Assembly (NCBI RefSeq): GCF_900115495.1
Contig: NZ_FOWR01000018.1
Span: 1-64,000 of the forward strand
DNA from: Enterovibrio norvegicus DSM 15893
GTDB taxonomy: Bacteria; Pseudomonadota; Gammaproteobacteria; Enterobacterales; Vibrionaceae
DNA length: 64,000 nucleotides
Reading direction: 5' to 3'
The notes under the pieces were generated by a model, which worked only from the letters and a program-made list of their open reading frames with translations, was not told the DNA's origin and searched no databases. Below, piece by piece: positions 30,207 to 49,209 of this stretch; within the stretch, counting starts at the first letter, position 1, and every line of letters begins with the position of its first letter. The position numbers and the translations under genes were made by a program.

Positions 30207-31242
30207 TGAGCGGTGCTCCTCCGATGTTCGGCTTGTGATCAGGCGTTGGCTTATCCTCATGTTCAGGCGAGTGCGACACCTTTTCTCCCGTGACTTCTTC
30301 GTACCAAAGATCATGGTGTTCTTTAGCCCAGGTCTCATCCACTTCGCCCGTGACCATGCCTTCGAGTGCGCCTTCCATCCCGAACAAGCCGATGTAGATA
30401 TGGAAAACAAAACCACAAATCAGGATCAACGCGGAGAGCATATGAACAAGGTTCGACACTTCCATGTCACTGCGCGTTTGACCGAAGATAGGGAAATCCA
30501 AAATCAATCCACTCACGGCAGCAATCGCACCAAACACAATCAACAGCCAGTAAATGGCTTTTTCACCACCATTTGAAAAACCTGCCGAAGGGTGCGTGCC
30601 TTTGTGTTTGCCCACCATGCCACCCAGCTTCATGAACCAGCTCACGTCGGTTTTGTTAAACAAAGATTTACGCCACCACTTGAGGAGCACAAAGATCAGC
30701 AAAATGAAGAACAATGGGCCGATGTAGTTGTGGTATTGCTTCGCCAGCATCACGATGCCGCCCCACAAAGCTTCTGGCACATAGGGTTTCAAAAAGTGTT
30801 TGCCATACACCAGCATCAAGCCGCTCAACGCAAGCGTGAGGAAGGTAAACGCCATGCTCCAGTGCAGCGCTCTGTCCCAACGAGACCAGCGCTTGAGCTT
30901 TTTACCGGTTCTGGGTTTGCTGAGCATCAAGGGGCCAACAAACACGTACGCCATGATCACCAATGCAATACTGCCAAAAATAGCGACCGCCGCTGCTGGC
31001 GACATCCATTTTTCTTTCAAAATGAACCAGGTTTCGCCGGGGGTATTAATCAGCACACCATGTTCAGGCGATTGCGAGGTGGTATACCCTTCTTCCCCCG
31101 CGCGGATCTGTCGCCACACATCGGCGCCCACCAATTGCACCATTTCTTTCGACGGCTTCACTGACTCAGCGTCATCAGCAACACTGGCGGGAACCCAACA
31201 GGTCGCTATCACCATCAACATGGCGAGCAATGTTTTCAACAT
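30199..31242 (-). CDS. fdhC: formate dehydrogenase cytochrome b subunit
   Basis: The 347-residue protein starts with a signal peptide (residues 1-22), a periplasmic stretch to about residue 80, then a four-helix cytochrome b556 domain with heme-ligand histidines such as WDRALHWSMAF (His127), KQYHNYIGP (His171) and VHMLSALILICGFVFHIYIG. It passes electrons from FdhB to quinone. The C-terminal tail is hydrophilic and rich in His, Pro and Glu. ATG 31242 follows TAGGAGGAGAT. Confidence 0.9.
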   Translation of the reverse strand: MLKTLLAMLMVIATCWVPASVADDAESVKPSKEMVQLVGADVWRQIRAGEEGYTTSQSPEHGVLINTPGETWFILKEKWMSPAAAVAIFGSIALVIMAYVFVGPLMLSKPRTGKKLKRWSRWDRALHWSMAFTFLTLALSGLMLVYGKHFLKPYVPEALWGGIVMLAKQYHNYIGPLFFILLIFVLLKWWRKSLFNKTDVSWFMKLGGMVGKHKGTHPSAGFSNGGEKAIYWLLIVFGAIAAVSGLILDFPIFGQTRSDMEVSNLVHMLSALILICGFVFHIYIGLFGMEGALEGMVTGEVDETWAKEHHDLWYEEVTGEKVSHSPEHEDKPTPDHKPNIGGAPLND

Positions 31243-31291
31243 ATCTCCTCCTAAACAGCGACGTATAACGTCACTGCCATGTCGATAATCA

Positions 31292-31897
31292 TTAGCTTTT
31301 CGTTGCGTCGTAAGCCAAGTCTTCACCATTGGTCCAGCCTGCGCCTTTCGCACCACGCTCAACCACGCGTTGGCGGAAAATGTCAGAGACTTTTGCTGCA
31401 TCACCCGCTAGCAAAGCTTTGGTAGAACAGAACTCGGCACAAAGCGGCAATTTGCCTTCAGCGATGCGGTTTGCACCATAAAGTTCACGTTCAGCCTCCG
31501 AGCCATCCGGCTCAGGACCGCCCGCACAGAAGGTGCATTTGTCCATTTTGCCCCTTTCGCCAAACGCCTCTTCTTTAGGAAACTGTGGCGCACCAAACGG
31601 GCAAGCAAACAAACAGTAGCCGCAACCTATGCACAGGTCTTTGTTGTGCAGCACGATGCCATCATCGGTGCGATAAAAACAATCAGCGGGACACACTGCC
31701 ATGCAAGGCGCATCAGTACAGTGCATACACGCCACAGAGATGGAATTCTCCCCCGGCACACCATCATTCAAAGTAACAACGCGTCGACGCTGCATGCCCC
31801 AACCCACCGCTTCCGAATTAGCGTTCTTACACGCAGTGACACAACCATTACACTCGATGCAGCGCTTGGTATCACACAGAAATTTCATATTCGCCAT
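31292..31897 (-). CDS. fdhB: formate dehydrogenase iron-sulfur subunit
   Basis: The 201-residue ferredoxin-like subunit has four cysteine groups for [4Fe-4S] clusters: CIECNGCVTACK, CMHCTDAPCMAVCP, CIGCGYCLFACP and CTFC...CAEFC. It carries electrons from FdhA to the cytochrome. There is no signal peptide of its own, so it is probably co-exported with the Tat-bearing alpha subunit. Start ATG 31897 behind AGGAGATC. Confidence 0.93.
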   Translation of the reverse strand: MANMKFLCDTKRCIECNGCVTACKNANSEAVGWGMQRRRVVTLNDGVPGENSISVACMHCTDAPCMAVCPADCFYRTDDGIVLHNKDLCIGCGYCLFACPFGAPQFPKEEAFGERGKMDKCTFCAGGPEPDGSEAERELYGANRIAEGKLPLCAEFCSTKALLAGDAAKVSDIFRQRVVERGAKGAGWTNGEDLAYDATKS

Positions 31898-34767: not shown

Positions 34768-34791
34768 GGTCAAACTCCATCCATCGCAGGG

Positions 34792-35064: not shown

Positions 35065-35679
35065 TCACCAAGGGCGTTGGGTAAAGCGTATTTTTTCTAT
35101 CATCAAAAACTGCTGTGCAAGCTCAGCCACCGCGGTATAAAACACCGCCGCGTCTGCGCGTTTAATGTCGGTAAAAAGCGTCTCAAACCACGGGGCGACA
35201 TGACGGTTAAAGAAGGCGGCTTGTTGCGTTTCATCCCCTTCTTCCACCAACATGGCCATGACTTCGAGTAACGCAGCAATATGGTCTTCGGGCTCTTTGG
35301 TGTCTTCTTGGCGCTCAAAGCCAAGTTGACGTAAATCTTGGCGAAGCAGCGCGAGCGGCAGTTCCATCAGCGAGCCAGTTAAGTACCAAGACCCAAACGG
35401 CATCACTTCCCCACGCCCTACGCCAATAAACAGCAATTGATATTCATCTGCTGCTTGCACGGGCCGCGTGGTTTTCGCACCCAATTTCAGCACTGACCAC
35501 GCCGCAGCCATGCCCGCAGAATGTTCATCGCCGTCGGTTTCCAATGTTGCCAGCCACGCCAAGGTGCTCTCATCAGGAGCTTGTCGCAGCAGATGCGCTA
35601 ACAGGCTATAAATGTGGTGACGAAGCGGGTTCTCTTCGTTGCTGATATCGTCGACGTTGATCATCTCTTGCATTGCCAT
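35065..35679 (-). CDS. TorD/DmsD-family chaperone for formate dehydrogenase
   Basis: The 204-residue all-alpha protein has the family motif GRGEVMPFGSWYLTGSLMELPL (positions about 110-131) and EPEDHIAALLEVMAMLVEEG. Such chaperones bind the Tat signal of a molybdoenzyme and hold it for cofactor insertion. Its place between the Tat proteins and the polyferredoxin implies FdhA is the client. ATG 35679 follows AGGAGGCG. Confidence 0.88.
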   Translation of the reverse strand: MAMQEMINVDDISNEENPLRHHIYSLLAHLLRQAPDESTLAWLATLETDGDEHSAGMAAAWSVLKLGAKTTRPVQAADEYQLLFIGVGRGEVMPFGSWYLTGSLMELPLALLRQDLRQLGFERQEDTKEPEDHIAALLEVMAMLVEEGDETQQAAFFNRHVAPWFETLFTDIKRADAAVFYTAVAELAQQFLMIEKIRFTQRPW

Positions 35680-35688
35680 CTTCGCCTC

Positions 35689-37464
35689 CTACGCCTTTAT
35701 CTGCTGGTCAGGGTTTTCGATCATGTCTGCGACCATGTCGCGCACTCGGCAGTCTTCGCACATCGATAAACGTTTGATGGCGTCATCTTGGAAATGGCTG
35801 TGGTTGCGAAGGCGTTCGATCAACATGTTGACCATGGAGACGGGTGCGAAAGGCTTACCGCAACTGATGCATTCTGCGGCTTCCTCTTCATGCAGGGTTT
35901 GGCGTTGCTGACGGGATGCACTGTCCCAGTTATATCTGGGTGTTAACGAGATAACCGATTCAGGACAGCTTTGTTCGCAGAGGCCGCATTGCACGCAATC
36001 TTGCTCCCTGAATGTCATGCCCGGCGTGGTGCCGATGGATTTCAATGCATCAGTCGGACAAACGGTGACACACCCCATGCACAAGGTGCAGCCCGAGGTG
36101 TCGATATCAATGCGACCATACGGGGCGTTTTCAGGCACGGCGACAATGGGGGGCAGTATGTCGGTGTGGGCGGCGAGTAAATCTAGCGCACTCGCGAGTT
36201 TTTCTCGTTTGCTGCCTTCTAATTTTGTACGCGGCGCGTTGTCGTTCGACACATCTGATGACATCACATCGCTGTCGAACAAGGTCGCGTGGCGCAATTC
36301 AGCGACGGGGAGCATGGCAATAAGGTGTGTTTCCAGCCCGAGCGTCTTTAAAAAACGCGCAGCTATGTCCAGTTCTTGCAAAAGCACATGGCGTGTTTTC
36401 GCATGAAGTTGTGATGATTCAGCTAACACCACTTGCGTAGCGCCATACACCAAGGCTGAGAACCAGGTATCAATGCCCACGGATGCCAGTTCTTCCAAAC
36501 GAACGGGAATGACTCGGCTCGGCATTTGCGCGATGGCATTCGCCAATGCGGTTTCGCCCGCGGGAGCCATGTCGTCGTCAGCATAGAAAAGCACGATAGG
36601 TGCGACACCCTCTTTTGCTTGGTAGTGCGTCAAAAGCTGGTGGAGAAAATGCTGTGTGTTGTCGGGATCAGGTAACGCATAGCTAATGGCTTCTGTCGGA
36701 CACGCCGTCGCGCACGACCCCATGCCCTGACACAAATACGGGTTGATGGTGATGGCGCTCTTCACGATATCCAAGGCATCGGCAGGACACGCATCAATGC
36801 AGCGCGTACACCCTTCCAGCCCACGTGATGTATGTGCGCATTTCTCCGTGTCCAAACGGAAAAACTTCGGCTTGTCGAACGTTCCCGTTAAATCAGGGAG
36901 AGCCTCAATGGTCTCCTCTTCTGAGCACAATCCTCGCCCAACAGCGTAATACCCCAAAGGGGGCAACTCAGCTGGATGAATGCCTTGCTCCGTCAAATCC
37001 ACCACCACATCGAAGTGCGGTTGCCCTGTGGTGATAACAGCAAGGTTTTGCGCGTCATGACCAAGCGCACCTTTTTGAGGCTTTCCATCGGCTGCCTCAC
37101 GCACGCCAATCTGCACATCAAAGGCACCGAGAAACCCATCAATCGCGATATCTTTGGCGTAGAACACGGAAAACTCCAGCGGGGTCACCGCGCCGCTACT
37201 TACTCCTTCAGTGCAGAGCAACACGGTATTGGCATGCAGAGAGGGTGGTAGCTTTCGCGCAAAGCGGAAAACCACTGTCGCTGCGCCAGCCACAAGAATA
37301 CGACCGTGACTGTCGAAGCTCACCGTCGGAGGAATGAGGTTTCCCAACGTCACCGTGCTCTGCAACGCATCTTGTCTTGCCATGCCATTGCGATCAGTGT
37401 GTTGTGTAAGAACCTGATTGATTGTTGTTATTGTATTTTCTGTCGACATTGTCTCGTTAGCCAT
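35689..37464 (-). CDS. polyferredoxin of the fdh locus
   Basis: The 591-residue cytoplasmic protein has four ferredoxin-type groups: Cys209/219/222/226, Cys245/251/255, Cys459/462/465/469 and Cys490/493/496/500. Two CxxC pairs near the C-terminus (Cys532/535 and Cys569/572) look like a zinc or cluster site. The middle, residues 290-400, has no cysteines. Orthologues occur beside fdh genes in vibrios and Shewanella, and the function is not settled. I use ATG 37464; Met at 37449 is an alternative. Confidence 0.85.
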   Translation of the reverse strand: MANETMSTENTITTINQVLTQHTDRNGMARQDALQSTVTLGNLIPPTVSFDSHGRILVAGAATVVFRFARKLPPSLHANTVLLCTEGVSSGAVTPLEFSVFYAKDIAIDGFLGAFDVQIGVREAADGKPQKGALGHDAQNLAVITTGQPHFDVVVDLTEQGIHPAELPPLGYYAVGRGLCSEEETIEALPDLTGTFDKPKFFRLDTEKCAHTSRGLEGCTRCIDACPADALDIVKSAITINPYLCQGMGSCATACPTEAISYALPDPDNTQHFLHQLLTHYQAKEGVAPIVLFYADDDMAPAGETALANAIAQMPSRVIPVRLEELASVGIDTWFSALVYGATQVVLAESSQLHAKTRHVLLQELDIAARFLKTLGLETHLIAMLPVAELRHATLFDSDVMSSDVSNDNAPRTKLEGSKREKLASALDLLAAHTDILPPIVAVPENAPYGRIDIDTSGCTLCMGCVTVCPTDALKSIGTTPGMTFREQDCVQCGLCEQSCPESVISLTPRYNWDSASRQQRQTLHEEEAAECISCGKPFAPVSMVNMLIERLRNHSHFQDDAIKRLSMCEDCRVRDMVADMIENPDQQIKA

Positions 37465-37701
37465 AAACACCTGCTTTCCAAGCTGGTTCACCCCATCCTG
37501 CGATATCACGCGAGCTGGTCTGTACTGGCTGTTCTATGCATCCAATCTATTTTTGATTTGTCTATTATTTCAATCACATCATTGGCTGTTGCGACGTTCA
37601 CTCACCTAGGTATTGCTGGCCTAGGCTGGCAGGTGACGCAGAGGAAAATTCAACAGCAATTCAATCTAAACAATGACTTGTCGGTAATGGCTTTTTATAG
37701 A

Positions 37702-37715
37702 GCAAGTACTGAACC
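37702..37715 (-). promoter_or_regulatory. candidate sigma-54 promoter for the polyferredoxin-fdhABC genes
   Basis: On the minus strand the bases read CTGGTTCAGTACTTGCTC: TGG, ten bases between GG and GC, then TTGCT. It lies in the 284-base gap between the DUF3306 gene and the polyferredoxin, with an inverted repeat about 70-110 bases further upstream at 37786-37822. Confidence 0.55.
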
Positions 37716-37748
37716 AGCTTTGAGGGAAGAAAAATGACGAATACGGAG

Positions 37749-38423
37749 TCAGAATCCGTCTGAATTCTTATCCACTCTTTTAGTTGGGACATTTTGACGC
37801 ACGCCGTACGACAAATTGTCCCTATTTTTCTCTAGGGTACTTTTTGTCTCACTCGCTAAGGCGAGGTCAGATTCGCCTTCCTCTTCACCCTCACTTCCGG
37901 TCGCCTCAGCGTTTGCATGTGGGCGTGCTTTTGAATCAGGTGAAGACGCGCATTCTTTCTCAGCGTTTACGGGTGCTTGATCATCACACTCAGTCATCTC
38001 CTCGACGTTTTCTTTCGTCCACTGACGCAGATTCGCCGCCACGTCAGCAGCCAGATTTGCGGTGTTGGAATAATCGAGGTCATAGTCATTCATGCCATCC
38101 AGCACGTTGTAGGCATCGCTTCGAAACAGTTTGCGCAGCGCTGCTTTTTTTACTTCGGATGACACGCCTTTCGCCAGAAACACGGCGGCTGAATCACCTT
38201 CCTGAAGGTTTTCAACGTCGTCCATTGTCGCAGGCGGCGGCAAAGTATCAGCATCTTCACCTTCAGGGCTTTCGCCATGTTCGATGGCATCGGAGAAAGA
38301 AGGCTCTGAGGAGAGAAACTCGCTGTCGGATTGCGTGACGTCTTCGCGGATTTCTTCTGTTTCATCAATCCACTCGCCGCGTTTTTTCGCTGACCAGCGT
38401 TGGAGGAAAGAGTCAGTTGCCAC
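37749..38423 (-). CDS. DUF3306 family protein of the fdh locus
   Basis: The 224-residue protein begins VATDSFLQRWSAKKRGE (GTG start), the recognisable DUF3306 opening, and becomes very acidic and of low complexity towards the C-terminus. The core FRSDAYNVLDGMNDYDLDY is conserved in the family. The function is unknown; it is found only in fdh loci as far as I know. GTG 38423 has GGAGGG just upstream and overlaps the DUF3305 gene by 11 bases. Its 3' end contains the inverted repeat at 37786-37822. Confidence 0.82.
   Translation of the reverse strand: MATDSFLQRWSAKKRGEWIDETEEIREDVTQSDSEFLSSEPSFSDAIEHGESPEGEDADTLPPPATMDDVENLQEGDSAAVFLAKGVSSEVKKAALRKLFRSDAYNVLDGMNDYDLDYSNTANLAADVAANLRQWTKENVEEMTECDDQAPVNAEKECASSPDSKARPHANAEATGSEGEEEGESDLALASETKSTLEKNRDNLSYGVRQNVPTKRVDKNSDGF
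37786..37822. promoter_or_regulatory. inverted repeat, candidate enhancer site for the sigma-54 regulator
   Basis: The arms GGGACATTTTGAC (37786-37798) and GACAAATTGTCCC (37810-37822) form an inverted repeat that agrees at 11 of 13 positions, with an 11-base spacer. It lies in the 3' end of the DUF3306 gene, upstream of the sigma-54-like element at 37702-37715. The left arm with its preceding T recurs exactly at 44417-44430, upstream of tupA. Confidence 0.55.
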
Positions 38424-38865
38424 TTGCCCTCCCCGCGCCTTTGCGTTTTTTCTTGCGGGTTTCCAGCAGCTCACCATGGCGACCAATATAGGCTTCCATC
38501 CACGCTTGGATCGGCAGCGGCATTGGCTCAGAAAGCACCAGATAGTCGCCATCCATAAAACTCGCCGCCCCGGTTTGCGATGCCGTGACTTGTAGAGGTT
38601 TTAGCGATTCATCCTCTTCCACTTCAAAGATGAAAAACAGGTGAGGGTCACGAGAACTGAGGTTAAATCGGTAGTCAGTACGCTCATCTTTAAACAGCAT
38701 CAAAGGCAGCGAATACGCTGATTCTGACAACGTTTCTTGGTTTTTAGGAAGGTGCAAATTTACCAGCGACCACCGCGTTGTATTCCAGCGCCCAACCGTG
38801 ACAATCGTTGTCTCTAAATCGAATTGCAGTAACCATTGTTGTGGGTCTTTAATTATCTCATTCAC
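38413..38865 (-). CDS. DUF3305 family protein of the fdh locus
   Basis: The 150-residue protein fits DUF3305 in context and length, with VGRWNTTRWSLVNLHLP near residue 25 and SRDPHLFFIFEVEED mid-protein. The C-terminus is a basic tail (ETRKKKRKGAGRASGN). It is known from fdh loci next to DUF3306, and its function is unknown. The ATG at 38865 has AAGGAG 11 bases upstream, following the tandem repeat with sigma-54-like elements. Confidence 0.82.
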   Translation of the reverse strand: MNEIIKDPQQWLLQFDLETTIVTVGRWNTTRWSLVNLHLPKNQETLSESAYSLPLMLFKDERTDYRFNLSSRDPHLFFIFEVEEDESLKPLQVTASQTGAASFMDGDYLVLSEPMPLPIQAWMEAYIGRHGELLETRKKKRKGAGRASGN

Positions 38866-38941
38866 ACATCACTCCTTCGTGTTTCCGCAGCGAAATACGC
38901 GCGCTGCAGCAGGGTTTGGCTGACCCTCAAGGTGTCTTTGT

Positions 38942-38981
38942 GCAAAACACATACCAGCGTGGCGCAAAACACATACCAGCG
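38942..38981 (-). promoter_or_regulatory. tandem 22-bp repeat carrying two sigma-54-like promoters
   Basis: GCAAAACACATACCAGCG occurs at 38942-38959 and again, identically, at 38964-38981. On the minus strand each copy reads CGCTGGTATGTGTTTTGC, with GG-N10-GC and TGG/TTGC flanks as in sigma-54 promoters. The copy nearer the gene is followed by A, as the consensus prefers. The start of the DUF3305 gene is 77 bases downstream of the nearer -12 element. Confidence 0.6.
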
Positions 38982-39023
38982 CGCCTTCACCACATTCAAA
39001 AAGTCATGCCCACGCAAAATGCT

Positions 39024-39037
39024 GGAACAGGTTTTGC
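39024..39037 (+). promoter_or_regulatory. candidate sigma-54 promoter for fdhD
   Basis: The plus strand reads CTGGAACAGGTTTTGCTT: TGG, ten bases between GG and GC, then TTGCT. It lies 70 bases before the fdhD start and points away from the tandem elements at 38942-38981. Confidence 0.5.
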
Positions 39038-39106
39038 TTTTTACTTCCTTGGCGGGCTGGAACGTGGCGCGCTGTTTTCATTCCCCAACGCAAAGGAAGC
39101 GGGTAC

Positions 39107-39937
39107 ATGACCCAACCCAACATCATCAAAACGCAGTCTGATATCCCGCAAACCATTGATGTCACTGTGTTCGACGAATACGGCGAGCCCATGACGAAAC
39201 AGATTGCCTGCGAGCGCGCACTCACTGTGTATCTGAACTGGCGAGAAATCGTGACCTTGATGACACTCGGCGCGAGGCCTGACATGTTGGTGCTGGGGTA
39301 TTTGCGTAACCAAGACTTATTACATGACGTTAACGCCTTAGACTCCGTCATCATCGACTGGGCAACGCAGTCAGCGGCTGTCGTCACCCACGAGCAAAAC
39401 GACGACATTGAGGAAACACTTTCCAAGAAAACGGTCACGTCGGGCTGCGGACAAGGCACCATGTTCGGCAATGTGATGAAAAAACTCGATGACTTAGTGC
39501 TCCCTACGCCCCAGCTGAAACAATCGACGCTCTACGGCTTGCTCGAATCTCTCACTCATCACAATGACACTTACAAAGCTGCGGGGGCTGTGCACGGCTG
39601 CGCGGTCTGCAAAGACACTGACATCCTTTCTTTTGTTGAAGACATTGGCCGTCATAATGCGGTTGATACGCTAACAGGAGAAATGTGGCTTCAAGGACAA
39701 ACGGGCGGCGACAAAATTTTCTACACCACAGGCCGCCTCACGTCTGAAATGGTCATCAAGGTGGCGCAAATGGGGATTCCAGTACTGCTCTCGCGCTCCG
39801 GCGTCACTCAGATGGGCTTTGATTTAGCAAAGCAACTTGGCATTACCATGATTGCGCGTGCCAAGGGCCATCGCTTCCAAGTGTTTAACGGTGCAGAGAA
39901 CATCGACTTTGATGTCAAAGGATCGCGGGATGAATGA
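39107..39937 (+). CDS. fdhD: formate dehydrogenase sulfurtransferase FdhD
   Basis: The 276-residue protein has the family's CxxC site in HGCAVCKDTDIL, which carries persulfide sulfur from a cysteine desulfurase to the Mo/W-bisMGD cofactor, and later VEDIGRHNAVDTLTGEM and TTGRLTSEMVIKVAQMGIPV. Without FdhD, formate dehydrogenases are made inactive. It is divergent from the DUF3305 gene. The 3' end overlaps the next gene by 8 bases. Confidence 0.93.
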   Translation: MTQPNIIKTQSDIPQTIDVTVFDEYGEPMTKQIACERALTVYLNWREIVTLMTLGARPDMLVLGYLRNQDLLHDVNALDSVIIDWATQSAAVVTHEQNDDIEETLSKKTVTSGCGQGTMFGNVMKKLDDLVLPTPQLKQSTLYGLLESLTHHNDTYKAAGAVHGCAVCKDTDILSFVEDIGRHNAVDTLTGEMWLQGQTGGDKIFYTTGRLTSEMVIKVAQMGIPVLLSRSGVTQMGFDLAKQLGITMIARAKGHRFQVFNGAENIDFDVKGSRDE

Positions 39938-40829
39938 TTTCCCCGAATTCATGAATGCCCGCCAAGTCGCGGAATACATCGACCTCAATGAAAAGAAGGT
40001 CTATAGCCTTGCCAATGATGGTGTGCTCCCCGCCACCAAGATCACCGGGAAATGGCTTTTCCCGAAAAGCTTGCTCGACCGTTGGTTACTGGAATCTAGC
40101 CATAATGGGGTCTTTAATGACAGGTTACTCATCGCGGGTTCTGACGACCCGTTGCTACAACATATTGTGAGTAAAATGGCCGCCACGCTCGGCAGCACAG
40201 CGCTGGTAGGGTATACCGCCACAGGCACCAAGCAAGGGCTGGCCATGCTTGAAAAAGGCCATGTTGATATGTGCGCCATTCATTGGGGTAACGCGGAAGA
40301 AGCAAAGCTTCGCCATCCCGCCTTGCTTCAACAATATTCGGGGCATAAAAATTGGGTGTTAGTCCACGGTTTCGAACGACTTCAAGGCTTGATTGTAAGG
40401 CCTGAACAGGCAGACAAGCTCAATGATCCTTACCATTTTTCGGACAAACGGTGGCGTTGGGCTGGTCGACAAGATGGCGCAGGCAGTGCGCGCGCCATGG
40501 ACGAATGGCTATTTCGCAACGACATGACACGAGACACGTTAAACACCGTCACCACTTGCTTGAGCGAACGCGAACTCGGTTCCGCGATTGCACGCGGCTC
40601 TGCCGACATCGGCTTTGGCAGTAAAAGTGCGGCAGGAGAATTCGGCTTGGCCTTTCTCCCCATTGCCAACGAAGCGTTTGAATTTGTGATCCCAAAAAAC
40701 ATCTATTTCCGCACCTTGGTGCAGCAGGTCATTCACCATCTGGATGATGAAGAAAGTCGCCAGCAAAGCGAATTGTTTGGCGGCTATGACTTTGAGCACA
40801 CAGGCAAACAGATGTGGTCAGCGAGTTGA
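39930..40829 (+). CDS. helix-turn-helix protein with periplasmic-binding-like domain
   Basis: The 299-residue protein has an excisionase/MerR-like N-terminal helix-turn-helix (FMNARQVAEYIDLNEKKVYS) and, from about residue 75, a type II binding-protein-like domain with VGYTATGTKQGLAMLEKGHV and ERELGSAIARGSADIGFGSK. Such one-component regulators bind a small oxyanion or cofactor; molybdate or tungstate is a fair guess from the locus. ATG 39930 overlaps the fdhD stop, so the two are co-translated. The target genes are unknown. Confidence 0.82.
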   Translation: MNDFPEFMNARQVAEYIDLNEKKVYSLANDGVLPATKITGKWLFPKSLLDRWLLESSHNGVFNDRLLIAGSDDPLLQHIVSKMAATLGSTALVGYTATGTKQGLAMLEKGHVDMCAIHWGNAEEAKLRHPALLQQYSGHKNWVLVHGFERLQGLIVRPEQADKLNDPYHFSDKRWRWAGRQDGAGSARAMDEWLFRNDMTRDTLNTVTTCLSERELGSAIARGSADIGFGSKSAAGEFGLAFLPIANEAFEFVIPKNIYFRTLVQQVIHHLDDEESRQQSELFGGYDFEHTGKQMWSAS

Positions 40830-40850
40830 TGTTTGACGCTTTCAGACAAT

Positions 40851-40880
40851 AAAAAACACGCCGACGATGGCGTGTTTTTT
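40851..40880. terminator. bidirectional terminator between the HTH gene and the sensor kinase gene
   Basis: The stem AAAAAACACGCC / GGCGTGTTTTTT with a 6-base loop is A-rich on one side and T-rich on the other, and serves the two convergent genes. Confidence 0.88.
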
Positions 40881-40897
40881 GTTTGAAGCGTCACCCG

Positions 40898-42934
40898 CTA
40901 CTCAAGCATTTTCAGTGGTGCAATGTCATCATCAGACGGGATCTTTTCTCTGAGATACAGCACGAATGTACTGCCTTTCCCCACTTCAGATTCGACCTTT
41001 ATCTCACCCCCTAGCCCGCTCACAATACCCTGTGTGACAGACAAGCCAAGCCCTGTGCCTGAGCGTCTGGTGGTAAAAAACGGGTCGAACACTTTGGTCA
41101 GATTTTCGTTGGCGATGCCGCAGCCAAAGTCTTCGACCGCAATAACCGCACCGATGGTCTCGCCACGTTCGTCGATCCAATCGTCAGAGCGCACAATCAG
41201 TTTACCTTTGTCGTTCATGGCATGAATGCCGTTCATTTGCAGGTTAACCAAGACTTGCAGCAATTGATGACGGTTAATCTCGACGCTGCATTTGGCGTTC
41301 AACGCCGTCACGATTTCAACATCTTGTTTCTTGGTGCCAGAACGTACCAAAGTGACGCTCTCTTCTATCACGGGATTGACGCGCTGCCAGGTGATTTCAT
41401 CTTGTACGCCGCCTTGGCGACTGTATTGCAACAGGCTTCGCGTGATGTTTCGAATACGGTCGATTTGCGCTAAGACAGCAGACATTTCCTCAGACACCAA
41501 ATCAGCATGCTGCCCGAGTTCATATTCCATTAGCTCAATGTTGCCGAGGATCACCGCTGCGGGGTTATTGATTTCGTGAGCAATGCCTGCGGTTAGCTCA
41601 CCCAAGGCCGCCAACTTTTCATTCAGTAATAGTTTGTGTCGTGTCTGTTCCAGTAACTTGATGTGGTAGCCCAATTGCTCCGTCCGTTCATGCAAACTCG
41701 CCGTGCGCTCACGCACTTTGTCTTCAAGCTCTAACGCGTTTTGGCGAATTGCATCGTTTTGCTGCTTTAGCTGGTCAAGCATGCTGTCGAACTGACGCGC
41801 CAAACTTGCCAGCTCGTGCTCAGGATCTAGCCCTAGCTTGCCAATCCTGATGTCTTTTTCGAATTGCACCAATCTCACTGCACGGTGCATTTTTTCTATC
41901 GGGCGGAACAGGTCTCGTGCGCCGCGGTAGACAAACAACCCAGACACAAGGAGCGTGAGCAACACACCAATGCCCAACTCAACGATGTTGGTCAGATACC
42001 GGCTAATAAATGGCCATTCGAGATAGCCGGTGTAAAGCATGCCAATCACACGATTGTTGAAATCTCGGATTGGCATGTATGCCGAGATATACCAAGCATC
42101 GTAAACATAGGCACGGTCGACCCACTCTTCCCCTTCCACCAGCACCGTTTGCTGTACTTCTTGCGACACGCGCGTACCGATGGCGCGGCCAAATTTGCTG
42201 TCGCTGTTTAACGGCACATTGGTACTGACGCGAACGTCGTCCAAAAAGAGGGTGACAGTGCCCACGCCCGCATCGGGCAACTTTCCTTCCGGGAAAACAA
42301 GATCGCGGATCCTATCCACCAGCACCGTACTGTTATTCAGCAAGATGCCTCCGTCCACGATCCACTCTAGCTCACCATTTTCATTAAAAAGCGGCAGCAA
42401 GCTCCTGCTTATCAGGCCACGTTCTTCAAACGTGTTTTCGTTCAAAAGCGGGATTTCAGCGCGGGCTGGAAGGTCATTGGTTAGCGATGACAATTCAATT
42501 TCAGACATGACTTGGAAGAAAGTGCGTTGCTGACCTCTGAGCAGAGGAAAGCGCAAGGTTTGCGGCAAACGGTCGATGTCTTCTGCCGCATACACGGCAA
42601 GAAAATCGACGTCGTATTTCCCCGCCCGCGATTGCGCCCACACGGTGAGTGCTTCAGGGTCAGTTTTGATTTGCATTTGGAATTCATAGGAATCTGCGAT
42701 GGCGTGAAGTTGGCGGCGCTGCTCTCGTTGCAACACTTCCATGCTGTTGCTCGCCACTGCAAGATCCGCGCGAACACCCGCTAAGGCGTTGGTCCATGAA
42801 TACGCCAGCGTCCAATACAAGGTGAGTCCAATCAAGACAAATAGCGTCAACAAAATTGGGACTGACGTTAATGCCAGCAAGCGATAGCGCACCGCAGTAC
42901 GAAATCGTGTTCGCCACTTATTCAGCCACTTCAT
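40898..42934 (-). CDS. membrane sensor histidine kinase
   Basis: The 678-residue kinase has a membrane helix at residues 21-45, a periplasmic cache-like domain to about 310, a second helix at 315-337, a HAMP-like linker, a coiled coil near 390-440, then a HisKA segment with His453 in IAHEINNPAAVI. The ATPase has N-box Asn564/568, DFGCG (Asp602) and GTGLGLS at 626-632. It resembles NtrB/DctB-type partners of sigma-54 regulators. The ligand is unknown; formate, molybdate or tungstate are guesses. The partner regulator gene lies 58 bases upstream in the same operon. Confidence 0.9.
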   Translation of the reverse strand: MKWLNKWRTRFRTAVRYRLLALTSVPILLTLFVLIGLTLYWTLAYSWTNALAGVRADLAVASNSMEVLQREQRRQLHAIADSYEFQMQIKTDPEALTVWAQSRAGKYDVDFLAVYAAEDIDRLPQTLRFPLLRGQQRTFFQVMSEIELSSLTNDLPARAEIPLLNENTFEERGLISRSLLPLFNENGELEWIVDGGILLNNSTVLVDRIRDLVFPEGKLPDAGVGTVTLFLDDVRVSTNVPLNSDSKFGRAIGTRVSQEVQQTVLVEGEEWVDRAYVYDAWYISAYMPIRDFNNRVIGMLYTGYLEWPFISRYLTNIVELGIGVLLTLLVSGLFVYRGARDLFRPIEKMHRAVRLVQFEKDIRIGKLGLDPEHELASLARQFDSMLDQLKQQNDAIRQNALELEDKVRERTASLHERTEQLGYHIKLLEQTRHKLLLNEKLAALGELTAGIAHEINNPAAVILGNIELMEYELGQHADLVSEEMSAVLAQIDRIRNITRSLLQYSRQGGVQDEITWQRVNPVIEESVTLVRSGTKKQDVEIVTALNAKCSVEINRHQLLQVLVNLQMNGIHAMNDKGKLIVRSDDWIDERGETIGAVIAVEDFGCGIANENLTKVFDPFFTTRRSGTGLGLSVTQGIVSGLGGEIKVESEVGKGSTFVLYLREKIPSDDDIAPLKMLE

Positions 42935-42992
42935 AGGCTGCTATTCTGTTTAAAGCCCATGTGTGCATGGTGGCGGGATAAGCACATCATTG

Positions 42993-44375
42993 TTACAGCC
43001 ATTCTTTGAACTTGCGCTCTAAGGTCTTTCTCGCCACGCCCAGTTGGCGCGCCGCAGCAGATTTATTCCCTTCATGCGCATCGACCACCCGCTCGATGTG
43101 CGCACGTTCAACGTCTTTCAACGGCCAACCTAACGGATAACCGTCTTCTTGCTGGGCTATTTCTTGTTCATCACACTCAAGGTCATGCGCAGGTGCTGTC
43201 ACCCCGGAATTGCCGAGCCACTGCGTCACATCGGGTTTGCCGAGCAATATCGCGCGTTCCACGGTGTTTTTGAGCTCTCGAATATTGCCCGGCCAGCCGT
43301 AGTGTTTCATGGCGGCCACTTCGTCATTTGCCCACACCACGGGTTTCATTCCCATGTCTCTGGCGAGCATCTCGGAGAAGTGATTGAGCAAAAGGCCTAT
43401 GTCTTCAACGCGCTCTCTAAGCGGCGGGATCTCCACCGACAAGACATTCAAGCGGTAGAACAAATCTTTCCGAAAACGCCCTGCTGTAACTTCTTCATGC
43501 AGGTTGCGGTTGGTGGCAGCCACAATGCGCACATCCACATTCACCTCGCGTTCTGCACCAACGGGACGAATGGTTTTCTGTTCTAAGGTGCGAAGGAGTG
43601 AGGCTTGCATCGACAATGGCATTTCGCCGATTTCATCCAGAAATAACGTGCCTCTATCAGCCACGCGGAACAGGCCATCTTTGCTTTTCCTCGCCCCCGT
43701 GAATGCGCCCGCCACATGACCAAATAACTCGCTTTCCAATAGCTCTGGCGCTATCGCCCCGCAGTTCAGAGGCACAAAAGGGCCATTTCTACCGCTTACC
43801 GCATGCAGTGCACGCGCCACCAATTCTTTCCCCGTGCCGGATTCACCTTCAATCAACACAGCGGCTGGCGATGGCGCGAGGCGTGAAACCAGTTCACGCA
43901 TTGCCAACGTTTTAGGGGCGTCGCCAATGATATCGACAGGAAAAGACCGTGCGACGTCGCGTTGCAGTGCGACATTTCGTCGTTCCATCATGCGTTTATC
44001 TAAACAGCGCTGAACAGATTGAAGCATTTGTTCGAGGTTAAACGGCTTAAGAATAAAATCGGATGCGCCCGCTCGCAGCGCTTTGATGGCGGTTTCAAGC
44101 TCGGCATAACCCGTCATGAAGATGATGTCGCTGCGTCGTTCATCGTCATTAAAGGCTTCATGCCAATCAATGCCAGAACGCCCGGGAAGGTTGATATCGA
44201 CAATCAACAAGTCGAAGTGATTTCGCTTTCGCAAGGCTTCCGCTTCTTCAAGAGAAGACGCCGTTTCTACCTGAGTGAGCTTTTTCGATAGCGCTTTGTT
44301 CAATATCGCGCGCATGCCAGGTTCATCATCCACCACCAAGGCGGAGAACCCAAACTGCTGTAATGCATCTTTCAT
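42993..44375 (-). CDS. sigma-54-dependent response regulator
   Basis: The 460-residue NtrC-family protein has a receiver (acidic Asp16/Asp17, phosphoacceptor Asp60, Lys110), an AAA+ domain with Walker A GESGTGKE (177-184), the sigma-54 contact loop GAFTGA (223-228), Walker B TLFLDEIG (243-250), and a Fis-type helix-turn-helix at 425-460. It should open sigma-54 promoters after phosphorylation by the adjacent kinase. The ATG at 44375 follows AGGAAAGG. It is divergent from tupA, whose upstream region has a strong sigma-54 element. Confidence 0.94.
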   Translation of the reverse strand: MKDALQQFGFSALVVDDEPGMRAILNKALSKKLTQVETASSLEEAEALRKRNHFDLLIVDINLPGRSGIDWHEAFNDDERRSDIIFMTGYAELETAIKALRAGASDFILKPFNLEQMLQSVQRCLDKRMMERRNVALQRDVARSFPVDIIGDAPKTLAMRELVSRLAPSPAAVLIEGESGTGKELVARALHAVSGRNGPFVPLNCGAIAPELLESELFGHVAGAFTGARKSKDGLFRVADRGTLFLDEIGEMPLSMQASLLRTLEQKTIRPVGAEREVNVDVRIVAATNRNLHEEVTAGRFRKDLFYRLNVLSVEIPPLRERVEDIGLLLNHFSEMLARDMGMKPVVWANDEVAAMKHYGWPGNIRELKNTVERAILLGKPDVTQWLGNSGVTAPAHDLECDEQEIAQQEDGYPLGWPLKDVERAHIERVVDAHEGNKSAAARQLGVARKTLERKFKEWL

Positions 44376-44417
44376 TTCTTGAATGCCTTTCCTCTCTCAG
44401 GTGTCCATATGATACAT

Positions 44418-44430
44418 GGGACATTTTGAC
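44418..44430 (+). promoter_or_regulatory. candidate enhancer site upstream of tupA
   Basis: GGGACATTTTGAC repeats exactly the left arm of the inverted repeat at 37786-37822 (14 identical bases with the T before it). It lies about 120-135 bases upstream of the tupA sigma-54 element, a usual distance for an enhancer. A partial partner TGTCC is at 44403-44407. Confidence 0.5.
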
Positions 44431-44550
44431 TCAGTCCGATAGCAGCATCACTTTTTCATGCACGAGCATGACTCGCCGACATCAACACATGAACGCTTAA
44501 TCTCTTATATTTCATCACGATAAAGTAATTCCACCACAAATAGCAAGGTT

Positions 44551-44564
44551 GGCATTTTTGTTGC
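44551..44564 (+). promoter_or_regulatory. strong candidate sigma-54 promoter for tupABC
   Basis: The sequence TTGGCATTTTTGTTGCT fits YTGGCAC-N5-TTGCW closely: TTGGCA, exactly ten bases between GG and GC, and TTGCT. It lies 61 bases before the tupA start and directly faces the sigma-54 response regulator gene. Confidence 0.78.
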
Positions 44565-44625
44565 TTTGTCTACTTCCTTTTCTACAACTCGATAAGAAGT
44601 TTCGTCAACAACGTCAGGAAGACAC

Positions 44626-45438
44626 ATGACAGTCAGAAGAAAAACCAAAGCCATTGCGCTAACAGGCTTACTCCTTTCAATTTGTTTCACCGCCAATGCG
44701 GCGGAGGTGATTCGCCTTGCGACCACCACCAGTACTTACCATTCAGGGCTACTCGATTTTCTTCTTCCAGAATTTAAAAAAGACACGGGGTATGACGTGC
44801 AAGTCCTAGCAGCAGGGACAGGTAAAGCCCTAAGGATGGGAGAAAATGGCGATGTGGATGTGGTAATGACCCATGCACCCAACGCCGAAGCCACCTTTGT
44901 CGATAAAGGGTTTGGCGTGCTACCCCGCGCCCTGATGTACAACGATTTTGTGCTTGTCGGCCCACAGAGTGACCCGGCCAACATCAAGGGCAGCAAAAGC
45001 GTCGCACAGGCATTGAGCAAGGTGGCAGATATGGATCAGACGTTTATTTCTCGTGGTGATGATTCTGGCACCCACAAAAAAGAGCGGCTGCTTTGGGACG
45101 CGGCGGGCGTGCAACCGGCATTTTCTGGATACAAAGCCGTGGGCCAAGGAATGGGGCCAACACTGACCATGGCGAATGAATTGCAAGGTTATGCCCTGAC
45201 CGACCGAGGTACCTGGCTGGCGTACCAAAGCAAACTCGACATGGCCGTGCTCGTCGAAGGCGATGACCGTCTGTTTAACCCTTATCAGGTTATCTTGATC
45301 AACCCGACGCGCTACCCCGATTTGAACTACCAAGGCGCGAAAATGTTCAGCGATTGGCTGGTAAACAAAAAAGCCCAACATTTGATTGATAGCTTCAAGG
45401 TCAGCGGCCAACAACTCTTTGTGGCGAACGCAAGCTAA
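44626..45438 (+). CDS. tupA: tungstate-binding protein TupA
   Basis: The 270-residue periplasmic protein has a Sec signal peptide (residues 1-25, cleaved after TANA) and the TupA hallmark RLATTTSTYHSGLLDFLLP, whose Thr-Ser loop binds the oxyanion. GDDSGTHKKE and the C-terminal LFNPYQVILINP also fit the family. TupA binds tungstate far more tightly than molybdate, as known for characterised members. It heads a five-gene run through mobB-moeA. Confidence 0.9.
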   Translation: MTVRRKTKAIALTGLLLSICFTANAAEVIRLATTTSTYHSGLLDFLLPEFKKDTGYDVQVLAAGTGKALRMGENGDVDVVMTHAPNAEATFVDKGFGVLPRALMYNDFVLVGPQSDPANIKGSKSVAQALSKVADMDQTFISRGDDSGTHKKERLLWDAAGVQPAFSGYKAVGQGMGPTLTMANELQGYALTDRGTWLAYQSKLDMAVLVEGDDRLFNPYQVILINPTRYPDLNYQGAKMFSDWLVNKKAQHLIDSFKVSGQQLFVANAS

Positions 45439-46136
45439 TGAACTTACTCGACACCACCCAACAAGCGGTTTCCCTGCTGTTTAGCGGCGATACAACGCTA
45501 TGGGGTATTGTTGGTGTGTCGTTTTCCGTGTCACTTATTGCTATTGGGCTGGTCTTAATTCCAGCCCTCCTTATTAGCTTTGCCCTTGCGTATTGGCGTG
45601 TGCCAGGCAAATGGCTCGTACTCTCTCTCGTCAATACGCTCCAATCTGTGCCAACCGTGGTGGTGGGGTTGCTGCTTTACATGATGCTGTCCCGCGCCGG
45701 TCCGCTGGGTGATTGGAAGATGCTGTTTACGCAAAAGGCGATGATTTTGGGACAGATCCTGATCAGCCTTCCGATCTTGATTTCCATGATGCACGCAGCA
45801 TTCCAAAACAGTGACCGACGCGCATGGGAGACGGCCTATACGCTCGGTGCATCCATTCCTCGCGCCATGATGACCTTGATGTGGGAAATCCGTTTCCCTT
45901 TGCTTGCCGCTGTGATCACGGCGTTCAGCCGGATCATCACAGAAGTTGGGTGCTCCATGATGGTCGGTGGCAACATCCTGTATTACACCCGAAATATTCC
46001 CACCGCGATTGCGCTAGAAACATCTAAGGGTGCCTTCGCGCAAGGCATCGCACTCGGCATGGTGTTGCTGTTACTGGCGCTCACCATGAACTTCTTCATT
46101 AGCTTTGCCCATGGCAATGGCCACTTGAGAACCTAA
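45438..46136 (+). CDS. tupB: tungstate ABC transporter permease TupB
   Basis: The 232-residue integral membrane protein has five or six helices and the ATPase-docking loop around WETAYTLGASIPRAMMTLMW. It shares one base with the tupA stop codon. It forms the channel for tungstate import as a homodimer. Confidence 0.9.
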   Translation: MNLLDTTQQAVSLLFSGDTTLWGIVGVSFSVSLIAIGLVLIPALLISFALAYWRVPGKWLVLSLVNTLQSVPTVVVGLLLYMMLSRAGPLGDWKMLFTQKAMILGQILISLPILISMMHAAFQNSDRRAWETAYTLGASIPRAMMTLMWEIRFPLLAAVITAFSRIITEVGCSMMVGGNILYYTRNIPTAIALETSKGAFAQGIALGMVLLLLALTMNFFISFAHGNGHLRT

Positions 46137-46149
46137 CTTGAGCGAGAAT

Positions 46150-46851
46150 ATGAGTCAGATAACCTTAGAAGCTGTTGATCTCTCAGTGAAATACAAACAC
46201 CGTTTGTTGTTTCACATTCCCTCATTGAAGCTGTGTCCGGGTGATGCGGTGTACCTCTCAGGTCAAAACGGCATTGGCAAAACAACCCTGCTAAAAGTGC
46301 TCGCGGGTATTCAGCGCCCGTCCAGTGGCTCTCTCAACCTTGCTCGCGCCTCTTGGCTTCAACGTTTAGCGGGTTTTACCGGGCAAAGTGGTGTGATTTA
46401 CATGCACCAATCGCCGTATTTGTTCGATGGTTCAGTGATTGAAAACATCGCTTATGGCCTGAAAGGAAAGCATGTCTGTCAAAGAAAACAGCGACAGCTT
46501 ACAATGCAGGCATTACGTATGATTGGGCTAGAATCGCTGAGTCGCGAGCATATTTCTGTGCTCTCTGGCGGTGAAAAACAGAAAGTGGCCATGGCGCGTG
46601 CTTGGGCGATTAATCCTTCGATTTTGTTGATGGACGAATCCTGCGCTAACCTCGATGTTGAAGCGATAAACGCGCAAAAAGTCATGGTGGATGATTTGCG
46701 TGACCGCGGCGCGAGTTTAGTGCTGACCAGCCACCACCCCAACACGCTCACCGACGGCTGTAATCAGCAATGGTTGCTCGAAAACCAACGCCTCATACAC
46801 AAGCCAGAACTCAATATCATTAACAAGGATAACCATGCCTTCGCATCCTGA
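46150..46851 (+). CDS. tupC: tungstate ABC transporter ATPase TupC
   Basis: The 233-residue ATPase shows Walker A GQNGIGKTTLL, signature LSGGEKQKVAMARA and Walker B ILLMDESCANLD. I use ATG 46150, behind GAGCGAG; an upstream TTG at 46138 is also in frame. Its end overlaps mobA by 17 bases. Confidence 0.88.
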   Translation: MSQITLEAVDLSVKYKHRLLFHIPSLKLCPGDAVYLSGQNGIGKTTLLKVLAGIQRPSSGSLNLARASWLQRLAGFTGQSGVIYMHQSPYLFDGSVIENIAYGLKGKHVCQRKQRQLTMQALRMIGLESLSREHISVLSGGEKQKVAMARAWAINPSILLMDESCANLDVEAINAQKVMVDDLRDRGASLVLTSHHPNTLTDGCNQQWLLENQRLIHKPELNIINKDNHAFAS

Positions 46852-47419
46852 CACTACATGGGTCATTCTTGCCGGCGGACAAGCACGCCGCATGGGCGGC
46901 CAAGACAAAGGGCTTGTCACGCTCAACGGCAAACCGTTTATTGAATTCGTCCATGAGCGCCTGACAGAACAAGGCGCGACCATTGCGATTAACGCCAATC
47001 GAAACCAAGAAAGGTACGAACAATACGGCCCGGTTTTTGGTGACGTATTGGAGGGCTTTCCCGGCCCCTTAGGTGGTATGCATGCTGCGATGTCGAACAT
47101 CGACAGCGAGTGGCTTGGCTTCGTCCCTTGCGATTGCCCTAACCTGCCCCACGCCCTGCTGGAAAAGATGTATCACGCCATCAGCGCAGACGCTGAAATC
47201 GTGGTTGCCCATGATGGTGAATCGGTGCAGCCTGTGGTGACCATGATGAAGCGCAGCATTTTCGAAAGGCTGAATACGTTTCTCGCCAACGGTGACCGCA
47301 AAATTGTCTTGCTCTACGACCTATGCAATACCGTCTTTGTGGATTTCAGCGCCGAGCATGACGCCTTCATCAACCTCAACACGCCCGACGAGCTGTCGCG
47401 TTACGGGGAGTTGTCATGA
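46835..47419 (+). CDS. mobA: molybdenum cofactor guanylyltransferase MobA
   Basis: The 194-residue enzyme opens WVILAGGQARRMGGQDKGL, the GTP-binding signature of MobA, and has GPLGGMHAAM and FVPCDCPNLP. It adds GMP to molybdopterin, making the MGD form needed by FdhA. It is translationally coupled to tupC and overlaps mobB-moeA by 4 bases. Confidence 0.93.
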   Translation: MPSHPDTTWVILAGGQARRMGGQDKGLVTLNGKPFIEFVHERLTEQGATIAINANRNQERYEQYGPVFGDVLEGFPGPLGGMHAAMSNIDSEWLGFVPCDCPNLPHALLEKMYHAISADAEIVVAHDGESVQPVVTMMKRSIFERLNTFLANGDRKIVLLYDLCNTVFVDFSAEHDAFINLNTPDELSRYGELS

Positions 47420-49209
47420 GCCCGACCCATTGCTCACTGCCCGTTTTAGGGTTTGCAGCATTTAGTGGTACAGGCAAAACAACCCTGCTGGAAAAACTCA
47501 TTCCTGCCTTGGTTGAAAAAGGCATTCGCATTGCCATGGTCAAACACGCGCACCATGATTTTGATGTCGATAAACCAGGTAAAGACAGTTATCGCCTGCG
47601 CAAAGCGGGGGCGACACAAATGTTGATCAGCGCTCGCTATCGTCACGCATTGATGACTGAAACGCCCGATCGCGAATGCACGCTCAATCAATTGCTCGGG
47701 CAACTCGATCAGAACAACGCGGATTTGGTGTTAGTGGAAGGCTTTAAACACAACGCTTTCCCCAAGATAGAACTTCATCGCGCAGCACTCGACAAGCCCT
47801 GGCTTCACCCAGAGGATCCAAACATTGTGGCAGTCGCCTGCGATGACTCATCTTCTTCTGCCTCCTCTACCGAGCTTCCATCAACATCCCCGCCTCGTTT
47901 AGACATCAATGACATTGCGAGCTTGGTGGGGTTTATTCAACGTTGGATGGAAAGCCACAACGCACAAACCGCCACGTGCGATTCACTGTCGCCAACGCTG
48001 TTGTCGGTGGACGACGGCAGAGCAAAAATCCTTGACGCGATTGCGGTGTCGGAACACACCGAAACATGCGATCTGAACGAACTGCCTCATCGCGTGTTGG
48101 CAGCGGATATCATTGCGCCTGTGAACGTGCCTTCTTCAACTAACTCGGCAATGGACGGCTATGCCATTCGCAGTGACGACATTGAGCGCGAAGGCTATCG
48201 CCTCGTTAGTGATGTGTTTGCAGGTCACCACTACGCGGAAACCCTTACGGCGGGAGAATGCGTGCGCATTATGACGGGCGCGCCCGTTCCAGAAGGTGCA
48301 GATACTGTGATCATGCGTGAGCAAGCAAGCGACGATAACGGCACAGTGTCTTTCGACACAACCAAAGGGGCTATCCGAGCGGGGCAAAATGTGCGTCAAG
48401 CAGGTGAAGATCTCCGACGAGGTGCAACGGTTTTTCAAGCAGGAAAACGCATTGGCGCAGCGGAACTGGGGATGATGGCATCGCTCGGTTTTGACCGTGC
48501 TGAGGTATTCAAACCGATAAAGGTTGCCCTGTTTTCAACTGGCGATGAAGTACAAGCGCCGGGCACAGCCGCAAAATCTCACTGCATTTATGACGCAAAC
48601 CGATACACGCTGCGCGCCATGCTCACCAAACTCGGTTGCGAGATCCTCGATTTCGGCATTATTGAAGACACCGAAGCGGCATTACACGCCACGCTCAGCA
48701 CTGCCACAGAACAAGCCGACATGGTGATTTCATCCGGTGGCGTCTCCGTGGGCGATGCAGACTACATTAAAACCGTGTTAAGCCAGCTGGGTGACATTAA
48801 CTTCTGGCGCGTCAACATGCGTCCCGGCAGACCCCTCGCCTTCGGTAAACTGGGCGATGTGCCTTTCTTTGGGCTGCCAGGCAACCCTGTGGCCGTGATG
48901 GTGACGTTCCTGCAATTCGTTGAGCCAGCGATACGAAAAATGCAGGGAGACGCCCACTGGCAGCCTGAAACCCTGTCAGCCATTACGCAAGAGCGCATCC
49001 GCTCACGTCGCGGTCGCACTGAATATACCCGCGGTATATACAGCATCAGCGCCAATGGTCAGCTAGAAGTCAGATCAACGGGCTCACAAGGTTCAGGTAT
49101 TTTGCGGTCAATGAGTGAGGCCAATTGCTTAATTGAAGTCGCGCCGGATGTGGACAATGCGGAAGTGGGCGATCGTGTCACTATCATTCCACTGGCATCT
49201 CGACTGTAG
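47416..49209 (+). CDS. MobB-MoeA fusion protein
   Basis: The 597-residue protein joins MobB (residues 1-175; P-loop SGTGKTT at 17-23, VKHAHHDFDVDKPGKDSYRL, LVEGFKH) to MoeA (about 200-597; STNSAMDGYAIR, RIMTGAPVPEGADTVIMRE, SSGGVSVGDADYIK, GLPGNPVAVMVTF). MoeA inserts metal into adenylated molybdopterin; MobB is a GTP-binding adaptor that helps make MGD. The fusion with mobA upstream puts the last steps of cofactor synthesis behind tungstate import. Confidence 0.92.
   Translation: MSPTHCSLPVLGFAAFSGTGKTTLLEKLIPALVEKGIRIAMVKHAHHDFDVDKPGKDSYRLRKAGATQMLISARYRHALMTETPDRECTLNQLLGQLDQNNADLVLVEGFKHNAFPKIELHRAALDKPWLHPEDPNIVAVACDDSSSSASSTELPSTSPPRLDINDIASLVGFIQRWMESHNAQTATCDSLSPTLLSVDDGRAKILDAIAVSEHTETCDLNELPHRVLAADIIAPVNVPSSTNSAMDGYAIRSDDIEREGYRLVSDVFAGHHYAETLTAGECVRIMTGAPVPEGADTVIMREQASDDNGTVSFDTTKGAIRAGQNVRQAGEDLRRGATVFQAGKRIGAAELGMMASLGFDRAEVFKPIKVALFSTGDEVQAPGTAAKSHCIYDANRYTLRAMLTKLGCEILDFGIIEDTEAALHATLSTATEQADMVISSGGVSVGDADYIKTVLSQLGDINFWRVNMRPGRPLAFGKLGDVPFFGLPGNPVAVMVTFLQFVEPAIRKMQGDAHWQPETLSAITQERIRSRRGRTEYTRGIYSISANGQLEVRSTGSQGSGILRSMSEANCLIEVAPDVDNAEVGDRVTIIPLASRL

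Follow-up and report, generated by a model that had tools for sequence, protein, structure and literature searches.

In this study, we examined a 64,000-nt window of the genome of Enterovibrio norvegicus DSM 15893 (contig NZ_FOWR01000018.1, positions 1 to 64,000) that carries a formate dehydrogenase locus and its probable sigma-54 regulatory system. Family checks with Pfam and NCBIfam showed that the region from 30.2 to 49.2 kb extends from a respiratory formate dehydrogenase cluster through tupABC-mobA-mobB/moeA. The minus strand encodes the formate dehydrogenase gamma subunit (30199-31404; TIGR01583, above cut-off), the catalytic subunit, a molybdopterin oxidoreductase (31912-34773), a TorD/NarJ-type chaperone (35065-35679; PF02613), a polyferredoxin that is gene 1 of the fdh operon (35689-37509), a DUF3306 protein (37749-38426) and a DUF3305 protein (38413-38865). 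On the plus strand, fdhD (39107-39937; PF02634) shares an operon with the gene of a one-component regulator (39930-40829) that combines an HTH_17 domain with a periplasmic-binding-protein-like (PBP-like) domain and could be a sensor of molybdate, tungstate or the cofactor. Next come, on the minus strand, a membrane sensor histidine kinase with a periplasmic Cache domain (40898-42934) and an NtrC-type response regulator with a receiver domain, a sigma-54 AAA+ domain bearing GAFTGA, and a Fis-type helix-turn-helix (HTH) domain (42993-44375); the first-pass annotation had named both the GAFTGA regulator and the membrane kinase, and the family checks bore it out. The plus strand then holds tupA (44626-45438), the permease gene tupB (45438-46136), the gene of the ATP-binding cassette (ABC) ATPase tupC (46138-46851; ABC family, named from context), mobA for molybdenum cofactor guanylyltransferase (46835-47419; TIGR02665, above cut-off) and a fused mobB-moeA (47416-49209; PRK14491, above cut-off). 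An rpoN gene was found in the genome.

The best models for the first two transport genes were TupA (237.5 bits against an NCBIfam equivalog cut-off of 400) and TupB (191.2 bits against 320), both scores lying below cut-offs that are a naming rule rather than a statement of biology. TupA matched the solved structures 3muq, 5my5 and 3lr1; the closest, 3muq of Vibrio parahaemolyticus, is classed as TupA in PMC5517513. Its TTTS motif (T33-S36) is invariant across 15 aligned sequences, and the protein is 95% identical to that of Enterovibrio baiacu, the nearest among the named records found. The imported oxyanion is likely to be tungstate rather than molybdate.

Five sigma-54-like sites had been proposed in the gaps of this cluster, and all five were present where claimed. 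Four match TGG-N8-TTGCW exactly: one before the polyferredoxin-fdh operon (37701-37716, minus strand), a gene-proximal copy before DUF3305-DUF3306 (38941-38956, minus strand), one before fdhD and the HTH/PBP regulator gene (39023-39038, plus strand) and one before tupABC-mobA-mobB/moeA (44550-44565, plus strand). The fifth, a second copy of the DUF3305 promoter (38963-38978, minus strand), ends in TTGCG and has a single mismatch. It arises from a 22-bp tandem duplication (38942-38981) seen only in the window and in its nearest relative, L036 (L081 is apparently this contig again); a single DUF3305 site is present in 12 other close loci (L037-L048).

The chance rate given in the first-pass annotation, one match per 30 kb per strand, was about twofold too low, as dinucleotide shuffles produced about one per 16 kb per strand. 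This corresponds to 7.81 matches per window on both strands, and nine were observed; in overall number, TGG-N8-TTGCW is not enriched in the window (37 of 100 shuffles reach nine). Four of the nine exact matches sit in three gaps totalling 730 nt, where 0.10 is expected (binomial P 2e-6, for gaps picked after the site positions were known), and the remaining five all lie inside open reading frames (ORFs). The earlier claim that the clustering in short gaps is non-accidental was upheld by this concentration together with conservation among relatives.

Conservation is the decisive test of whether such predicted sites are real. It was followed in 39 relatives, being the loci fetched with a full-length kinase gene, and in a further set, of 80 named TupA loci, which shares genomes with the first. 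The kinase and regulator genes are divergent from the tup operon in all 39 relatives, as far as the stretches extend. TGG-N8-TTGC occurs in the gap between the regulator gene and tupA in 38 of them, the exception being L074 with TGG-N8-CTGC, and a sigma-54 site precedes tupA in 80/80 named loci; Markov copies of the tupA gaps contained TGG-N8-TTGC in 37 of 2000 cases. In the gap between DUF3305 and fdhD, strict sites point in both directions in 58 of 69 loci (some genomes being repeated), and Markov copies of these gaps carried a site towards fdhD in 38 of 1380 and towards DUF3305 in 44 of 1380. GG and GC elements 10 nt apart, with TGG and TTGC flanks, are thus conserved in the corresponding gaps, which is the pattern of a sigma-54 promoter.

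A 17-bp palindrome, TGRGACAWWWTGTCYCA, which the first-pass annotation had missed, lies upstream of both tupA and the polyferredoxin-fdh operon. In the window, the candidate tupA enhancer site (44417-44433) matches at 16/17 and is centred 125 bp from the -24 element. The polyferredoxin sites lie within the coding 3' end of DUF3306: candidate site 1 (37785-37801, 15/17) is centred 77 bp from the -24 element, candidate site 2 (37807-37823, 14/17) 99 bp, and a possible site 3 (37835-37851, 14/17) 127 bp. The spacing of site 2 recurs in relatives at 15/17 or better, and the Enterovibrio/Grimontia group has a palindrome centred 77 bp, and mostly another centred 99 bp, from the polyferredoxin -24 element.

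Matches of at least 14/17 were found in the gap before tupA in all 40 loci (the window and its 39 relatives), in all 78 named loci with an adjacent regulator gene, and, with the exception of L074, immediately upstream of polyferredoxin in each locus mapped there; over the 769 kb of the 40 loci, 18.5 scores of at least 14/17 are expected by chance. Among the named loci, L158 of Aliivibrio fischeri has tupA, the kinase and regulator genes, the palindrome and the sigma-54 site. At polyferredoxin, 23 of 24 mapped loci have a palindrome of at least 15/17 with a sigma-54 site 30-300 bp further on (in L048 polyferredoxin is interrupted, and the promoter was assigned manually). At tupA, the nearest palindrome is centred 66-138 bp from the -24 element (170 bp in L057). 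Judged by eye, enhancer distances of 67, 77, 88, 98, 109 and 119 bp share a helical phase, and those of 125-138 bp do not. The E. norvegicus genome holds six places within two mismatches of the motif, two of them at this locus, versus four for the reversed pattern; two further exact matches in this genome to a first, shorter form of the motif fall inside long ORFs. From its co-conservation with the promoters, the palindrome is probably the binding site of the NtrC-type regulator.

Separation and loss of the genes were followed in a sample of 100 genomes (coded G, with g for genera and f for families; loci are coded L), in which family f6 is taken to be the Shewanella/Ferrimonas group. The kinase was found in 42 genomes, two of which (G002 and G014) count by the kinase core only, polyferredoxin in 44 and TupA in 45, and every genome with the kinase has both of the others. 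In 15/15 Vibrionaceae/Moritella genomes that have polyferredoxin on another contig than the kinase gene, or 12-108 kb away from it, the palindrome and the sigma-54 site were both kept at polyferredoxin. Two genomes, G027 and G043, have polyferredoxin and TupA without the kinase; the regulator was not seen in the fetched stretch, and their promoter gaps contain no TGG-N8-YTGC and no palindrome above 13/17. The clusters of these two genomes (L322 and L323) are complete and have an alternative arrangement, in which fdhD runs into tupABC in one row without the two-component system. G036, which has TupA without the kinase, polyferredoxin or a tupA-adjacent regulator, keeps the tupA sigma-54 site with a palindrome of 13/17; the named locus L110 of Photobacterium lipolyticum is the same stretch.

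A composite search for palindrome plus sigma-54 site in the 100 genomes returned 40 hits and its reversed control none; 39 of the hits lie no more than 600 bp from a mapped polyferredoxin start or 14 kb from the kinase gene. With a longer spacer there were 41 hits against five, 33 of the 41 being near a polyferredoxin start or the kinase gene. These hits are not independent, as a promoter with two palindromes can enter both searches; the tupA site of the window itself escapes the strict pattern, and at least one hit (in G048) faces the regulator gene instead of the target. A composite hit was present in 41 of the 42 genomes with the kinase and in eight of the 58 others. Regulon members beyond fdh and tup were near control level in these genomes, with one other hit against 0 and, for the longer spacer, eight against five.

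The only kinase genome without a composite hit is G089, which carries L074. There the GAFTGA loop reads DAFAGG and the tupA site has the CTGC ending given above; this regulator is the only one among 22 f6 loci (21 genomes) with neither GAFTGA nor GSFTGA, a single case, and no sigma-54-like site was found in the gap between fdhD and DUF3305. L074 may represent a turn away from sigma-54.

Taken together, the promoters and the palindrome, the conservation of both, their absence where there is no kinase, and the protein families, all read directly from the DNA, make it very probable that a circuit of regulator, palindrome and sigma-54 controls one regulon. In this circuit, the sCache_3_3 domain of the membrane kinase would detect a small ligand in the periplasm, formate being the likeliest, and the kinase would phosphorylate the NtrC-type regulator. 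The regulator would bind the palindrome, which in its nearest copy usually precedes the -24 element by 66-138 bp, and the GAFTGA loop of the regulator would open promoters held by sigma-54 RNA polymerase at the tupABC-mobA-mobB/moeA and polyferredoxin-fdh operons. The divergent promoters of DUF3305-DUF3306 and fdhD would probably be served from the cluster at the 3' end of DUF3306, by looping over 1.1-1.2 kb. The first-pass model, in which a single regulon unites the enzyme with its maturation factors, the import of its metal and the genes for its cofactor, is favoured by the conserved promoters, by the palindrome shared at two of the three gaps and kept where fdh and kinase separate, and by the absence of this motif and of TGG-N8-YTGC from the promoter gaps of the two kinase-less genomes.

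The model also agrees with published data for the fdh, tupA and DUF3305 promoters in V. parahaemolyticus (PMC9817140). In RNA sequencing of a delta-rpoN strain, VP1510-VP1515 were down by log2 3.2-4.75, VP1501 by 1.45 and VP1508 by 1.84, and V. cholerae chromatin immunoprecipitation (ChIP) sequencing peaks are marked there for VP1510, VP1501 and VP1508 (PMC9817140). The printed RpoN site of VP1501 is, letter for letter, the tupA promoter of five Vibrio loci; that of VP1508 is the DUF3305 promoter of V. diabolicus; and that of VP1510 differs at one position from the V. diabolicus polyferredoxin promoter. These matches and the delta-rpoN data indicate that rpoN dependence is already known for the three promoters in Vibrio.

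The signal was approached through the periplasmic portion of the kinase, spanning residues 44-332, which was modelled from 37 orthologues with a mean predicted local distance difference test (pLDDT) score of 90.6. Pfam sCache_3_3 was found in 37/37 of these sensor domains. In Foldseek, the chemoreceptor domain 9heh ranked first and the formate-bound structures 8py1 and 8py0 occupied ranks 2-6, with matches that cover part of the model and low template-modelling (TM) scores of 0.29-0.32 by query length. In a profile search of PDB sequences, the top match was 8py1 (E 4e-4), followed by LuxQ and then 8py0 (E 2e-3). Six residues, R235, T238, R250, G253, Y286 and P288, are invariant in the 37 kinases and recur in 8py1 and 8py0. 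Formate is the most likely signal because the domain is sCache_3_3 and its best PDB profile match is formate-bound; few sCache_3_3 domains have perhaps been solved (8py0 and 8py1 may be the only ones), so that formate is a best guess and not a result. We consider the case for formate as the signal of this kinase to be evenly balanced.

A regulon as described that answers to another signal, such as a different small carboxylate, redox state or metal supply, is a serious contender, at slightly short of an even call. Cache domains take many ligands, and this two-module sensor also resembles LuxQ and amino-acid receptors. Against such a signal, the output genes are formate genes, a formate-binding sCache_3_3 chemoreceptor domain has been reported (PMC12415202), and the six invariant residues are those shared with the formate-bound structures. 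A kinase without the Cache domain is encoded at L325 and L326 (G002 and G014).

Several observations weigh against the circuit or parts of it. The ranks of 8py0 and 8py1 are weak evidence for formate if no other sCache_3_3 domains have been solved, as may be the case, and LuxQ ranks between them. Purified RpoN alone gave no shift of the VP1510 promoter, and an indirect effect was considered (PMC9817140). In the window and in the 13 loci closest to it, the stretch spanning DUF3305 and fdhD has no palindrome above 12/17. The tupA gap of G002 and G014 keeps a 16/17 palindrome and a sigma-54-like site was not found in it, the sites before fdhD, DUF3305 and polyferredoxin being retained in both genomes. 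The kinase-less G043 has one relaxed GG-N10-GC match before tupA, directed towards it. Finally, four f6 genomes of genus g18 with an unlinked polyferredoxin show a palindrome of at least 14/17 in none and a sigma-54 site in three.

The g18 genomes speak for real sigma-54 promoters driven by some other activator of the cell than the neighbouring regulator, and a bacterium has several activators with similar AAA+ domains. Such an activator is nevertheless improbable, since the two kinase-less genomes lack the palindrome in their gaps, it has decayed to 13/17 in G036, and it is rare in the window's own genome. Slightly less credible still is the idea that the palindrome is the site of another DNA-binding protein, either the fdhD-linked HTH/PBP-like regulator or a metal-responsive repressor. 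The HTH/PBP gene does belong to the regulon, and its PBP-like domain could sense the metals or cofactor named above, but five Vibrionaceae loci that keep the palindrome showed no such gene in the stretches fetched (L064, L065, L067, L068 and L072; the rest of those genomes was not searched), and about 65-140 bp from the -24 element is a typical enhancer distance. Chance matches in the gaps, to which the unenriched window as a whole would lend itself, are a negligible prospect and were rejected on the shuffle, reversed-pattern and Markov controls together with conservation.

The divergent DUF3305/fdhD pair requires separate treatment. These promoters stand back to back; 11-44 bp separate their -24 elements in the window and in the 13 loci closest to it. 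In 14 of 16 loci from genera g40 and g47 (family f6), all except L203 and L074, the two promoters flank a palindrome of 14-16/17, most often at 57-58 bp from one of the -24 elements and at 80-91 bp from its counterpart. In the window, the pair is separated from the DUF3306 cluster by 1.11-1.23 kb; the distance is 0.95-1.5 kb in the Vibrionaceae loci that are long enough, and six stretches end before the region. Weak palindromes of 12-13/17 in the DUF3305 leader of the Vibrio loci L068, L140 and L150 may leave room for a local DUF3305 site. Most simply, these two promoters belong to the same regulon and are served, in the lineage of the window, by the distant DUF3306 cluster; the distant enhancer itself is plausible at a little below an even call. 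The fuller scenario is more doubtful: periplasmic formate sensing would command the enzyme, its maturation, metal import (probably of tungsten) and the cofactor, one DUF3306 enhancer cluster would serve three sigma-54 units, and the pair would have lost in this lineage an enhancer of its own of the g40/g47 type. The arrangement offers a natural test case for enhancer action over about 1 kb.

In the open-licence literature searched, no target set, motif or signal was found in print for this two-component system, and a search for a tungstate-responsive regulator returned nothing useful. The counterpart of the window's regulator is presumably VC1522. A ChIP peak of the quorum-sensing regulator AphA has been reported at VC1522/VC1523 (PMC6855506). 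The circuit proposed here would tie metal supply to the demand of the enzyme, explain two "hypothetical" genes of the published RpoN regulon, and supply a conserved Vibrionaceae two-component system with a set of targets, a motif to bind and a probable signal.

A link between formate and the sigma-54 activation of formate dehydrogenase genes, as proposed here, is familiar from FhlA of Escherichia coli. FhlA is a cytoplasmic one-component formate sensor with no receiver domain, whereas the activator in the window has a receiver domain, and its system takes in a periplasmic two-component sensor as well as a metal importer. For V. cholerae, an RpoN regulon was reportedly described by Dong and Mekalanos in 2012, a work cited by the authors of the V. 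parahaemolyticus study. The TupABC system of Desulfovibrio alaskensis likewise has a TupA with the TTTS motif, and its regulation is not treated in the portions of PMC5517513 on which this comparison draws. In Geobacter sulfurreducens, GSU0777-0781 also place fdh and fdhD behind an RpoN promoter, mapped there by primer extension (PMC2725144); the listed operon differs in being without metal import or cofactor genes, and no activator is named in the corresponding part of that paper. The nearest relation is the RpoN regulon of V. parahaemolyticus and V. cholerae, which has the corresponding fdh operon, sigma-54 sites and rpoN dependence (PMC9817140). For the Vibrio fdh operon and two genes called hypothetical there, VP1501 and VP1508, dependence on RpoN is thus already published, and the relevant passages of PMC9817140 name no activator, enhancer motif, metal import or signal for these two genes. 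To this the present analysis adds a probable activator, its putative site, a metal and cofactor operon, a probable signal and a candidate distant enhancer.

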